Source of the DNA: an uncultured bacterium
GTDB lineage: Bacteria > Bacillota_I > Bacilli_A > RF39 > UBA660
Assembly (NCBI GenBank): GCA_905215635.1
Contig: CAJMQX010000033.1
Location: 1-7,234, forward strand
Length of the DNA: 7,234 nucleotides
Direction of reading: 5' to 3'
How positions within the stretch are numbered: the stretch's first letter is position 1; every line of letters begins with the position of its first letter. The notes below the pieces were generated by a model. That model saw nothing but the letters and a program-made list of their open reading frames with translations. It did not search any database and had not been told where the DNA came from. A program made the position numbers and the translations under genes. Below, in pieces: positions 1 through 7,234 of the stretch.

Positions 1-402
1 AAAGATGAAATAGAAAGATTAGAAAGAAGTAAATCTAAAATACTAGACTTAATTGTCAAAGAGTTAATTAACGAAGATGACTTTAAAAAACAAAGTGATG
101 AGATAGTATCTAAAATTCATAAATTAGAAAATGAAATATCGGAGTTAGAAACTAAAAGTAAAAGTATATTAACTAACTATAAGTATCTAGAAGAAGTAAG
201 AAAGAAAGCATTGGAAAAGTTAAAATATGAAAATGCTGATATAGATAGTTTGATTTATGAATTTCTAGAGAAGATAGAAGTTTATAAGTTAAATGATAAC
301 AACTATATATCTTTAAGAGTTATATTAAATACCGGAAATCAATATGGTATTACTTTTAAACATGGAGAGCATCCTTTTGGTACGAACTATACATATGATT
401 AA
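1..402 (+). CDS. Large serine recombinase, C-terminal part (5' end outside window)
   Basis: The frame is open from base 1 to the TAA at 400-402 with no start needed, so this is the 3' end of a longer gene. The first ~75 residues are a charged, heptad-like helical stretch rich in E, K, L and I (for example LENEISELE). It is followed by IDSLIYEFLEKIEVYKLNDN and a short beta-rich tail. That order (long coiled coil, then a 'lvekI.V' segment) is typical of the C-terminal region of large serine site-specific recombinases of integrative elements. The catalytic serine domain and zinc ribbon would lie left of the window and cannot be checked. The last codons overlap the first recognisable codons of the spoIVA fragment in another frame, so the gene abuts its own attachment junction. 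A TTG at 211 could be taken as a start but lies inside the coiled coil. Family call is from pattern recognition; confidence is good but not certain. Confidence 0.75.
   Translation, partial: KDEIERLERSKSKILDLIVKELINEDDFKKQSDEIVSKIHKLENEISELETKSKSILTNYKYLEEVRKKALEKLKYENADIDSLIYEFLEKIEVYKLNDNNYISLRVILNTGNQYGITFKHGEHPFGTNYTYD
383..397. other. Putative element/chromosome junction (attL or attR) inside spoIVA
   Basis: Rightward from about base 386 the +2 frame reads T-I-H-M-I-K-V-D-V-E-S, which fits SpoIVA, where I recall ...S-I-H-M-I... before the conserved V-D/E-E segment. Upstream of 386 the same frame reads M-E-S-I-L-L-V-R, which is unrelated, while the recombinase frame stays coherent to its stop at 402. 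The crossover should therefore lie in about 383-397. Exact limits need the other junction, which is outside the window. Confidence 0.55.
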
Positions 403-664
403 AGTAGATGTCGAATCAACATTTGAACCAATTATAGGTAGTGAGATGCAAAGTAAAGAATTAATTAATGGTCTTACAGATGCTTCTAAAAGTGATGATA
501 TTTGGAAAAGTGAAATATTTGGACGCAGTTTAGATGTTATTGTTCAAGAAGGTATTCAAGCTAAATTAGCTATGATGCCAGAATCAGTAAGATATAAACT
601 ATGTCAAACATTAACTAAAATTATTAACAAAGGTAGTACTACAATGATTGCAATTGTCATATAG
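386..664 (+). pseudogene. spoIVA: spoIVA 3' fragment (stage IV sporulation protein A C-terminus)
   Basis: The product resembles the extreme C-terminus of SpoIVA, the ATPase that polymerises on the forespore surface as the coat basement layer. Visible family features are VDVES, PIIGSE, QSKELI, IFGRSL, IVQEGIQAKL, MPESVRYKL, a TLTKIINKGS stretch and the hydrophobic IAIVI end. About 93 residues remain of a protein usually near 490, so the GTPase-like ATPase region is absent here. The frame stays open back to an ATG at 344, but residues before ~386 are recombinase DNA read out of frame. ATG at 395 has no convincing Shine-Dalgarno, so normal translation is doubtful. HU lies next downstream, as in Bacillus, which supports the native locus. 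The fragment looks intact and uses the same AT-rich codons as its neighbours, as expected for a recently or reversibly interrupted gene. The 5' part is predicted beyond the element. Confidence 0.85.
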
Positions 665-810: not shown

Positions 811-1083
811 ATGACAAAAGCATGTTTAGTTGAATACATTGCTGAAAATGCTGACTTAACAAAAGCTGATGCTACTAGAGCATTAGAAGCTATGTTAGAA
901 GGTGTAACAAAAGGACTAAAAGAGGAAGGAAAAGTTACATTAGTAGGTTTTGGAACTTTCACTGCTAAAAAGAGAGATGCAAGAACTGGTAGAAATCCTC
1001 AAACAGGAGAAGAAGTTAAAATTGCTGCTAGAGTAGTACCTGGTTTCAAAGCTGGAAACAAATTAAAAGATGCTTTAAATTAG
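811..1083 (+). CDS. hup: HU-family nucleoid DNA-binding protein
   Basis: This is a 90-residue histone-like HU protein, the usual family length. It forms a homodimer that binds and bends DNA without strong sequence preference and compacts the nucleoid. The DNABII signature GFGTF (46-50), the basic arm [20 protein letters not shown] and the intercalating Pro63 in RNPQTG are all present. The family's C-terminal [10 protein letters not shown] motif closes the protein. A TGGAGGT Shine-Dalgarno correctly spaced before ATG 811 supports the start. It has its own promoter and a strong downstream hairpin, so it is probably monocistronic. Bacillus hbs lies directly downstream of spoIVA, and the same order is kept here. 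Residue 5 is Cys (MTKACL), a small oddity. Identification is essentially certain; the name hup versus hbs is a matter of convention. Confidence 0.97.
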
Positions 1084-3238: not shown

Positions 3239-4300
3239 TTAATGTCTTTTAGTATTAATCATATCATTAAAGGCTTCTATTTTAGTATCAATGTTAGCTA
3301 TATTATTTTCGCCATCAAAACTTAGATATAGAATAGGGACATGATATTCTTCGCTAATTTGACTTAAGATTGGCATGGCATTTATTTCAGGGACACAACT
3401 AAAACTTTTTATATGAATTATACCATCAACACCTTTTTCACAATGTTCTATGGCATGAACTACTGATTCAGTGCCATCTGCTCCAAGAGGGTATTTTATA
3501 TATTTTTTTCCTTTTCTTAGTAAATATCTTCTTTTAAATCTTTTAATTATTAATAAATATGTAAGATTGGTATATCTTGTTATTTCTATTTCTTCTTTTA
3601 TTAAGTTTCTTTCAATATTGTTACTAGAATTTAAATCCATAAGGGAAAATAATTCTCCAATTAAGAGGATCTTTTTTCTAGGTATATCTTTTAATTCAAT
3701 TGATTTATAGATTCTTTTATATTTATGATATATTTTTATAATTTTAATAAGGCTTAATTTTGAATTTAAATATTCTTGATGCATATTTTTTTCAGCATTT
3801 TCAAATGAGTTTAGCTGTTTTTCAAAACCCATATTCTTTCTTAATATTATATCTAATTTATCCATAAATATCATTATTAGAAAGCCTTTTAAAAGACAAT
3901 ATGCATAATAAAAAATATTTAGTTTTTTATTTTGAGTTTTAGCAAACTTATATAATTTAATTAAAGAGACACGATTATCTTTTATTAGATTTACAAATGT
4001 AAATTTATATCCTAGATCTTTTAAGATTTGTTCTTGTAATTCGGCAAAATATCCATAACGGCATCCGCCTCCTGCTTGTATTAAAATGTCAGCACCAGAA
4101 TTTAGAGCATCTATATAATTACCTAAATTATATTTAAAAGGCATGCATATATCATCTGGACTATATTTTGAACCAAGACTAATAGTATGTTTATTATTTT
4201 CTTCAGGAATAATCATCTCGCATTTAGTGATTTTTTCAATAATATATTTTATAGGAATATAATATTTACCTAGATGAGGTAGAGATATTTTCTTATTCAT
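3239..4300 (-). CDS. 2-hydroxyacyl-CoA dehydratase-related Fe-S protein (COG3581-like)
   Basis: This resembles the stand-alone proteins annotated as 2-hydroxyacyl-CoA dehydratase family or COG3581, whose relatives use an Fe-S cluster for radical dehydration. Diagnostic blocks are SPDDICMPFKYNLGNYIDAL (Cys52), AGGGCRYGYFAELQE (Cys80), a GVDGIIHIKSF segment and SFSCVPEINAMPI (Cys302), with the closing VPILYLSFDGE and IEAFNDMI. Cys52, Cys80 and Cys302 are candidate cluster ligands. The middle (~110-270) is Lys/Ile-rich, weakly conserved and predicted helical. Its ATG overlaps the upstream partner by 8 bases (ATGAATAA), with AGAGGTG as ribosome site, so the two are co-translated and probably form a complex. 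No ASKHA-type activator ATPase is present in the window. The physiological reaction of these short homologues is unknown to me, so no substrate is proposed. Confidence 0.8.
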   Translation of the reverse strand: MNKKISLPHLGKYYIPIKYIIEKITKCEMIIPEENNKHTISLGSKYSPDDICMPFKYNLGNYIDALNSGADILIQAGGGCRYGYFAELQEQILKDLGYKFTFVNLIKDNRVSLIKLYKFAKTQNKKLNIFYYAYCLLKGFLIMIFMDKLDIILRKNMGFEKQLNSFENAEKNMHQEYLNSKLSLIKIIKIYHKYKRIYKSIELKDIPRKKILLIGELFSLMDLNSSNNIERNLIKEEIEITRYTNLTYLLIIKRFKRRYLLRKGKKYIKYPLGADGTESVVHAIEHCEKGVDGIIHIKSFSCVPEINAMPILSQISEEYHVPILYLSFDGENNIANIDTKIEAFNDMINTKRH

Positions 4301-5207
4301 TATTTACACCTCTTAAAATATCAATAAAACTTTCTAGTTTTGTTTCTAGACTTAAATCAGTAATGTTTTCATCAATTAATAAATTTAATATGGGGAGTTG
4401 TTTATTCTTTCTAATAGCTAAATTATTAACAAGAGAATCTACACCACAAGGATATGTTGAGATAAATATTAAACCATCTACTTGATGATAGTAGTAGTAT
4501 AAGGCTCCAATCATTTCTTTAGAGTATTTCCAATATAATGTATTTGAAAAATATTCTGAAAATTTAGTAGCCGTTTTTTTATTCAAATAATTTGAGAATA
4601 TTGGAGTGATATTATTTTTTTCTAGATAATCGATAATATATCCAGAAATATATTTATCTTTTATATTGTAGAAATGGGACATAATTAATATTTTCTTATT
4701 AGACTTTGATAGCTTATTTTTGGTTTCTTGTTCTTTAGTAATATTATATGTTTTTTGTTTTTTTAAAGCATATATATAACTAGAAATAATTTTTATAGGA
4801 TTTTTAGTAAATTTGAATCCTATTTTTAGCAGACTCATAAATTGATATTTGTGTTTAGTATGTTCAATATCAATATCTAGTAACATACTTTCTGGTAGTA
4901 AGCATCTTAAATTATCATATATACCATTAAGTCTAGTACATGATTTATCTTTTTTACCATAATCACATACTCTTGATATAAGTAAATAGTCGCACTTTTC
5001 TGCAAGATATAGAGCATGTCCTATATATATTTTATAGGATAAACAGCATTCATCAATAGTGTTATTAACTCCTAAATCTACTATTTCATGATTTGTTTCA
5101 GGGCTTAAGATAACATTTACTCCTAAAGATTCTAAATAATTCTTCCATAATACACCATAACGATAATATAGTAAAGCTCTGGGAATACCAACTTTTATTT
5201 TTTTCAT
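4293..5207 (-). CDS. Acyl-CoA dehydratase activase-related protein (DUF2229 / COG3580-like)
   Basis: The N-terminus MKKIKVGIPRALLYYRYG, then LGVNVILSPETNHEIVDLG and IDECCLSYKIYIGHAL, is the hallmark of DUF2229 proteins annotated as acyl-CoA dehydratase activase-related. Cys54-Cys55, Cys81 (RVCDYGKKD), Cys90 (KSCTRLNG) and Cys254 (TYPCGVDS) are the family-type cysteines likely to bind Fe-S. The C-terminal LPILNLLIDENITDL and LETKLESFIDIL match the shared domain of the partner. At 304 residues it is the short stand-alone form, not the ~1400-residue fusion with an ATPase. AGGTGA lies three bases before ATG 5207, a tight spacing, and is buried in a predicted leader hairpin. It has its own extended -10 promoter, downstream of the rpoE terminator. 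The cysteine pattern supports a cytoplasmic Fe-S protein; the reaction is not known. Confidence 0.82.
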   Translation of the reverse strand: MKKIKVGIPRALLYYRYGVLWKNYLESLGVNVILSPETNHEIVDLGVNNTIDECCLSYKIYIGHALYLAEKCDYLLISRVCDYGKKDKSCTRLNGIYDNLRCLLPESMLLDIDIEHTKHKYQFMSLLKIGFKFTKNPIKIISSYIYALKKQKTYNITKEQETKNKLSKSNKKILIMSHFYNIKDKYISGYIIDYLEKNNITPIFSNYLNKKTATKFSEYFSNTLYWKYSKEMIGALYYYYHQVDGLIFISTYPCGVDSLVNNLAIRKNKQLPILNLLIDENITDLSLETKLESFIDILRGVNNE

Positions 5208-7143: not shown

Positions 7144-7234
7144 CTACTTTATCAAGAATATAGAAGAAATATTATCTTTAATTTTATTAGCTATTGCTTC
7201 TGGATTTTCGTGAAGTTTTTTAGTTAATAGTAGG
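7144..7234 (-). pseudogene. argS: argS 5' coding segment in a shifted frame (runs off window)
   Basis: Read on the - strand from 7233, the frame gives LLLTKKLHENPEAIANKIKD, then NISSIF and a stop at 7146-7144. L-x-K-x-x-x-x-N-P-x-x-I-A is the expected ArgRS Add1 domain pattern shortly before V-x-V-A-x-P-G-F-I-N. The downstream argS frame picks up at GAT (7153-7151) as D-K-V-E-V-A-R-P-G-F. Only 5 bases (7158-7154) lie between the Ile codon at 7161-7159 and that GAT. One missing base (or two extra) therefore explains the break. The gene's start lies beyond the right edge. Confidence 0.75.

Follow-up and report, generated by a model that had tools for sequence, protein, structure and literature searches.

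The window analysed here is the whole stretch of 7,234 nucleotides. At its left end, the tail of a large serine recombinase gene runs into the 3' part of spoIVA, and the gene for an HU-family DNA-binding protein follows (Table 1). The preliminary description had recognised this order correctly, while its estimate of about 93 codons for the spoIVA fragment is reduced to about 89 (88–89 codons, with the stop codon at 662–664). The shared core that it had placed within 383–397 does exist and is corrected to the CATAT of Table 1.

Table 1. Features at the left end of the window
Feature	Position	Strand	Remarks
Large serine recombinase (site-A subtype A1), C-terminal 133 residues	1..402	+	Open reading frame without stops; start outside the window
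Putative attR core CATAT	392..396	+	In relatives also ends the spoIVA 5' half (CATAT or CACAT)
spoIVA 3' fragment, codon ~401 to stop	395..664	+	PF20439; TIGR02836 403–492
HU-family DNA-binding protein, gene in its native place downstream of spoIVA	811..1083	+	PF00216, 112.5 bits

The Pfam family SpoIVA_C (PF20439) is covered over its full length by window positions 398–661 (87.5 bits, cut-off 25), and the spore_IV_A model TIGR02836 aligns to the fragment only over the positions listed in Table 1. The C-termini of spoIVA in two relatives (L001 and L002) are 92% identical to the fragment. A PDB sequence search with SpoIVA gave no match, nor did an Rfam scan of the window at gathering scores.

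The recombinase tail (1–402) has no Pfam or NCBIfam match of its own. It shares 77.5% identity over 129 aligned residues with the tail of an uninterrupted, full-length frame of 555 aa in genome G352, which ends in HPFGTNYTYD as in the window, and 62.2% identity over 127 positions with the region past an in-frame stop in the recombinase of G004 (L014). Both tails adjoin the same spoIVA break as the window's, which supports the left side of the window junction. On the right side, a query cut at position 393 showed that the window is collinear, to approximately position 7227, with L002, where spoIVA is intact (75.8%), and with L003, where its 3' part is intact (74.9%), so that a misjoin on that side is unlikely. 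Intact relatives have ATTCATATGAT at the position of the window core.

Two further observations concern the window. The last codons and the stop of the site-A recombinases come from spoIVA DNA (window 386–402; L021 9960–10011), so that the C-terminus of these proteins would change upon excision. At 3239–5207, two adjacent minus-strand genes gave separate matches to HGD-D (just above the cut-off) and DUF2229, both of which occur in proteins of the 2-hydroxyacyl-CoA dehydratase/activase type.

The window is best explained, with good confidence in the reading as a whole, as the attR, or right-hand, end of an integrative element with site-specific insertion, for whose large serine recombinase codon ~401 of spoIVA would be the attachment site.

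Insertion points in spoIVA and rejoining of the frame

The search of genome_contigs with the spoIVA fragment retrieved 421 relatives, of which the best 80 were analysed. Most of these 80 have a single open spoIVA frame that reads ...SIHM-IKV across the window's break point; the intact spoIVA followed by hup that the preliminary description proposed to look for is found among them, with the same downstream order. In 10 of the 80 loci spoIVA is split. The break lies at the window's codon (site A) in four loci (L014, L021, L023 and L027) and at codon ~121 (site B) in seven (L003, L013, L018, L028, L035, L074 and L021), L021 being split at both. The gene has two attachment sites, A at codon ~401 with the core CATAT, and B at codon 121 with the core TGG.

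Insertion at these cores is precise. At site A, the 5' half ends in ...TCAATTCATAT/AACAACTATAAAAATG and the 3' half starts with ...TTCTTATGCATAT/GATAAAAG (the slash stands for the junction); the core is CACAT in some hosts, and it was matched on attL and attR in G001–G004, G199, G181 and G352. At site B, the 5' half ends in ...ACTCCTTGG/GTG..GTGATACCC and the 3' half starts with GGTATCAC...CATACTGG/TATAG, the element arms forming an inverted repeat around TGG.

A complementary spoIVA 5' piece is present in nine of the ten genomes behind the split loci, G008 being the one without it. When G352 is included, whose 5' half (codons 1–405) adjoins an element arm like that of G004, the proportion is 10 of 11. 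In G001 the gene lies in three pieces (codons 1–122, 119–407 and 399–489). The preliminary description had expected a 5' part with a matching short core, as these genomes have; the opposite outcomes that it named (no 5' part, an intact spoIVA elsewhere in the genome, or a contig misjoin) were not what the relatives presented.

Joining the halves at the core gave an uninterrupted SpoIVA of 489–492 residues in all 25 testable genomes (24 and G352), in agreement with the intact frame of ~490 residues anticipated earlier; two joins were needed in G001. For site B, each half was cut at the TGG codon, which stands at the break in the same reading phase in both halves; for site A, the pair of nearby CAYAT matches yielding the longest frame was chosen. 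Such joins check two things, the presence of the core in a common phase on either side of the break and the absence of stops and frameshifts from each half; G012 and G198, to which no element DNA is attached, are among the 25. Besides, the short 5' stretch at a contig end in G181 gives 116 aa across the join, and G097 and G008 have no 5' piece extending to the core. Several other candidates for splits were rejected as ordinary contig breaks, namely G289 (94/95), G108 (171/216), G259, the 5' contig of G097 (codon 112) and G019 (390/414), the last with two different sequences.

Judged from these junctions and frames, the elements have almost certainly integrated into spoIVA with a geometry that would permit reversal. 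The earlier proposal that spoIVA serves as an integration site agrees with the precise insertions at two cores in the relatives.

Distribution, gene content and recombinases of the elements

Within a family sample of 291 genomes, 256 had a spoIVA match, and element DNA was found at one of the two cores in 20 of the 256 (8%), a lower bound since single partial matches were followed only in part. For this count, 44 genomes with several or partial spoIVA matches were chosen by hand and searched again, and the stretches of both sides were retrieved for most splits. Site-B element DNA is carried by 16 genomes (G001, G007, G009, G031, G056, G097, G101, G119, G167, G178, G219, G221, G230, G244, G261 and G275) and site-A element DNA by five (G001, G003, G004, G181 and G199). 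In the protein collection, the spoIVA fragment had 534 matches; among the 120 listed, at least 14 start with one of the leader peptides MVRTIHM, MVLLLNMESILLVRTIHM, MITVFHLTIKSILFVRTIHM, MHM or MLSRHM. The first four correspond to recombinase junctions found in split genomes, and MLSRHM is without counterpart.

Three site-B elements and one site-A element are complete on single contigs, flanked by spoIVA on both sides (L143, L144, L145 and L021), with lengths of ~3.6 kb (G244), 5.2 kb (G167), 11 kb (G178) and 7.1 kb (G001, site A). The ~3.6-kb element encodes an AAA/DUF4143 ATPase, a small ORF and the recombinase, and the 7.1-kb element encodes a macro-domain protein, a small invertase and an HTH protein (assigned by eye). 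Other elements are longer: that at site B of G001 begins on one contig and finishes on another, with over 6 kb of its sequence on each. The site-A element of G004 encodes an AAA protein with a sub-threshold Prim-Pol match. Ten proteins chosen from four elements (loci L021, L014 and L143), a subset of the element ORFs, were compared with PHROGs; they were assigned to recombinase/invertase, primase/helicase and other DNA-metabolism types or to unknowns, with no phage structural gene among these ten. As a separate observation, most of the 11-kb element is filled by the gene for a 2317-residue protein (L145 reverse complement, 3602–10555), a large cargo for a host genome of 1.1 Mb.

The 15 full site-B recombinases that were translated have 519–529 aa, are uninterrupted and share 64–100% identity. 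Three recombinases were scanned for domains (one of site B, one of A2, and A1 of L014): all scored above the cut-off for PF00239 and PF07508, and those of site B and A1 also for PF13408. The site-B protein comprises Resolvase, Recombinase and Zn-ribbon domains, and the solved full-length proteins closest to it are entries of the SP-beta protein YokA (SprA). In 51 other or partly overlapping genomes (E <= 1e-60), matches to the site-B query reached at most 56% identity, except in G119 and G018 (91–92%). Besides an intact spoIVA, G018 has a contig (L229, C24; L230) on which the small ORF is accompanied by the N-terminal 307 residues of a recombinase, 92% identical to the site-B one and cut off by the contig end; this contig possibly represents an occupied strain or the excised element. 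Neither the SpoIVA fragment nor the window's recombinase tail had a relative in viral_contigs, and the site-A2 and site-B recombinases had only distant ones there (31–44%), in 2 and 9 loci, respectively.

One identical recombinase is present in G001, G007, G275 and G097, whose SpoIVA proteins are 70–98% identical; the elements therefore move between hosts whose SpoIVA differs by up to 30%. The sister hosts G001 and G007 are 99.4% identical over 6.7 kb that span the spoIVA 5' piece together with the site-B element next to it, and site A of G007 is empty exactly where G001 has its clean 7.1-kb insertion. The identities of recombinase and host SpoIVA are weakly correlated (r = 0.20, 105 pairs), a value compatible with either recent mobile insertions or settled ones, and co-divergence of host and element was rejected as proof of domestication. 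In G004, whose recombinase is of the window's subtype, an in-frame stop follows residue 419, so this copy may be unable to excise.

Related recombinases were also seen beside other genes. In six loci (L202 3142–4309, L200, L212, L213, L217 and L220), the recombinase, ~39–44% identical to that of site B, is next to a LysM or amidase-LysM gene that appears cut at the 5' side, and CATANNAT, a CATA-type box, precedes the recombinase module in all five testable LysM loci (L202, L212, L213, L217 and L220). Two intact LysM homologues were viewed, L273 with CATAAAAT upstream and L276 without it. The LysM gene is possibly a second split spore or cell-wall gene. By eye, related recombinases also adjoin ABC substrate-binding-like genes (L214, L221 and L226) and a gene for a collagen-like repeat protein (L224).

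Proposed developmental control and alternative explanations

A small conserved ORF precedes the site-B recombinase in all 16 genomes with that stretch, and the box CATANNAT lies no more than 70 nt upstream of this ORF in 16/16 (12 distinct), compared with 53 of 894 other ORFs (at least 150 codons, same loci, unfiltered). The motif was selected after viewing these sequences and the elements are related, so that the 16/16 count is no independent test. A CATA-type box also precedes spoIVA itself in 33 of 88 upstream stretches. Regarding a directionality factor, site B combines the small ORF with the box; the box was also found within 330 nt of 8 of 26 related recombinases elsewhere (shuffle expectation near 0.2), which weakens it as specific proof, and none was seen directly before the site-A small ORFs. 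Five of those eight loci adjoin the LysM genes mentioned above.

Sporulation-type sigma factors occur in most carriers. Among 30 genomes (27 affected and 3 intact), 27 gave a sigK-type (spore_sigmaK) match of at least 270 bits, 12 of the 30 above the family cut-off, and 29 gave a second match of 239–265 bits that was taken for sigE. The bare tally of 30/30 is unspecific, since 11 of 14 control genomes also match, none of them above the cut-off. G005, G009 and G167 have no full-length sigK-type match of 270 bits. A split sigK in G167 was rejected, its two contigs overlapping by 77 bp. As an observation in its own right, sigK of G005 (L190 2357–4467, C5) consists of a 3' part only, from near NEILMYF, directly after a recombinase frame of 568 aa; the split is skin-like, in a genome where spoIVA is split too, and the 5' sigK part is absent from the matches listed.

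Contig ends hint at the state of the sites. The contigs of both spoIVA halves in G012 and G198 end exactly at TGG, with only those three bases in common, and the 3' contig of G149 begins at TGG and overlaps by 141 bp exactly with a 5' contig in which the gene continues unbroken. A de Bruijn assembly of occupied and empty sites together should break at the core, whereas a shared element alone should leave element bases on the contig. These ends therefore suggest the branches expected if both forms coexist. The three bins have no site-B recombinase at the threshold used, beyond relatives of 41–42% in G012, so strain mixture could explain the ends as well. The circle junction (attP) was not found in 386 genomes with exact patterns for site B and site A2, outside which some arm variants fall (e.g., that of G056). 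The same patterns matched six (site B) and no (site A2) stretches in viral_contigs; the six were taken as chance, as none encodes a site-B recombinase or SpoIVA.

Anchoring of the whole spore coat depends on the ATPase SpoIVA, which is produced early in the mother cell. Each of the two spoIVA sites is used by its own recombinases. We propose that the small protein encoded just before the recombinase would act as an excision (directionality) factor, and that sporulating cells would make it in the mother cell. The element would be cut out there and SpoIVA restored early enough for the coat to be assembled; the chromosome in the forespore would retain the element. Excision in the mother cell is probable in view of the target gene, the layout of small ORF and recombinase, the CATA box, the uninterrupted frames and the precedent of known systems. 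Taken together, an element at a spoIVA attachment site that is removed in the mother cell is the best explanation, and one in which we have good confidence.

It is unlikely, on balance, that the elements are plain mobile DNA inserted at conserved spoIVA codons under no developmental control, leaving their hosts without a normal coat until chance loss, in lineages that would be short-lived. Their clear horizontal movement, with one recombinase identical in four hosts, the broken recombinase of G004 and the circle junction that was not found in 386 genomes all favour such elements, and a recent insertion would likewise leave spoIVA fragments undecayed. Against this, recombinases of distinct groups have come to use the same gene, at two points in it, and 20 of 256 genomes carry the elements though spores probably serve transmission. 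The site-B recombinase is moreover preceded by a skr-like small ORF with a CATA box, and the contigs that end at the core suggest coexisting forms; both observations argue in the same direction.

Far less probable is that the hosts no longer sporulate and that spoIVA is a free target, hit without consequence. The hosts are uncultured and have small genomes (0.9–1.7 Mb), we know of no sporulation phenotype for them, and 35 of the 291 family genomes gave no spoIVA match, many of them surely incomplete bins; on the other hand, most genomes of the sigma-factor sample reach 270 bits for the sigK type, every joined frame is uninterrupted, and a CATA-type box precedes spoIVA in part of the upstream stretches. 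Chimeric contigs fusing a recombinase repeat to spoIVA are a negligible alternative: many records are metagenome bins by title and many elements extend to contig ends, yet breaks at these two cores are seen in many separate assemblies, for four elements a single contig includes the flanking spoIVA on either side, and the window flank is collinear with relatives.

Significance and relation to known intervening elements

If SpoIVA is rebuilt by excision, these uncultured gut bacteria, members of one family and probably spore formers, may restore the gene only at spore formation. As SpoIVA is early and anchors the coat, splitting its gene places recombination upstream of coat assembly. The known split sporulation genes are extended here by two sites in one gene, a gene in three pieces, small elements and many species. 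With these genomes one can compare, across naturally occurring cases, how mobile elements come under developmental control; among them are bins where occupied and empty spoIVA sites may coexist. More tentatively, and with somewhat less confidence than doubt, spoIVA could be a hotspot in gut Bacilli where distinct recombinase lineages each evolved excision timed to the mother cell, with sister modules of small ORF and recombinase splitting other cell-wall or spore genes (the LysM amidase and, by another recombinase, sigK), so that programmed rearrangement would be general in the sporulation of this family. If this is true, the three-piece spoIVA of G001 would require two recombination events, separate from each other, within a single developing cell.

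The split sporulation genes named in the portions of the literature consulted are sigK, spsM, spoVFB, spoVR, gerE, kamA and yabG. The corresponding portions of PMC5595907, PMC10747680 and PMC6957869 do not mention spoIVA; elsewhere, in passages of the respective papers, it appears as a sigma-E target and expression marker in C. difficile (PMC5025042) and as a CRISPR-spacer target (PMC5553647). Among open-licence papers on spoIVA with intervening elements, prophages, recombinases or mobile elements, no report of it as a target was found.

The elements described here share with the sporulation gene-intervening elements skin, SP-beta/spsM, vfbin, vrin, gin and yin a split sporulation gene with both parts in one genome, a short direct-repeat core with in-frame rejoining, and an encoded large serine recombinase. 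In skin, which interrupts sigK in Bacillus subtilis, SpoIVCA is the recombinase and Skr the directionality factor. The gene skr (64 aa) lies just upstream of spoIVCA and has a sigma-E promoter, according to the part of PMC6957869 consulted. The spoIVA elements resemble it in their large serine recombinase, the small ORF directly upstream and the rejoinable sporulation gene. They differ from skin in that their target is spoIVA instead of sigK, that excision is here proposed, and that skin is a defective prophage, while the ten element proteins scanned include no phage structural gene.

SP-beta, the prophage with SprA and SprB that is inserted in spsM, offers the nearest solved relatives of the site-B recombinase by sequence and also uses a small factor, whose gene sprB has a perfect sigma-E/K -10 and an imperfect -35 sequence in the section consulted of PMC4191935. 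Unlike this active prophage, the spoIVA elements are smaller (~3.6–11 kb where complete on one contig), occupy a different gene, and are presumed to be excised. The gin element is a non-phage integrative element that likewise lies inside a mother-cell gene, gerE of Bacillus cereus, and is excised by GirC with the extra factor GirX; as far as the consulted part of PMC5595907 describes it, gin has 28.6 kb and three recombinases, while the spoIVA elements use two points of one gene in many species. Finally, integrated and excised forms of yin, in yabG of Clostridium botulinum, occur in one culture, as stated in the excerpt consulted of PMC10747680, and a similar coexistence is suspected for spoIVA from the contig ends; yin is prophage-like and is known from one strain, whereas the spoIVA elements are spread over many species.
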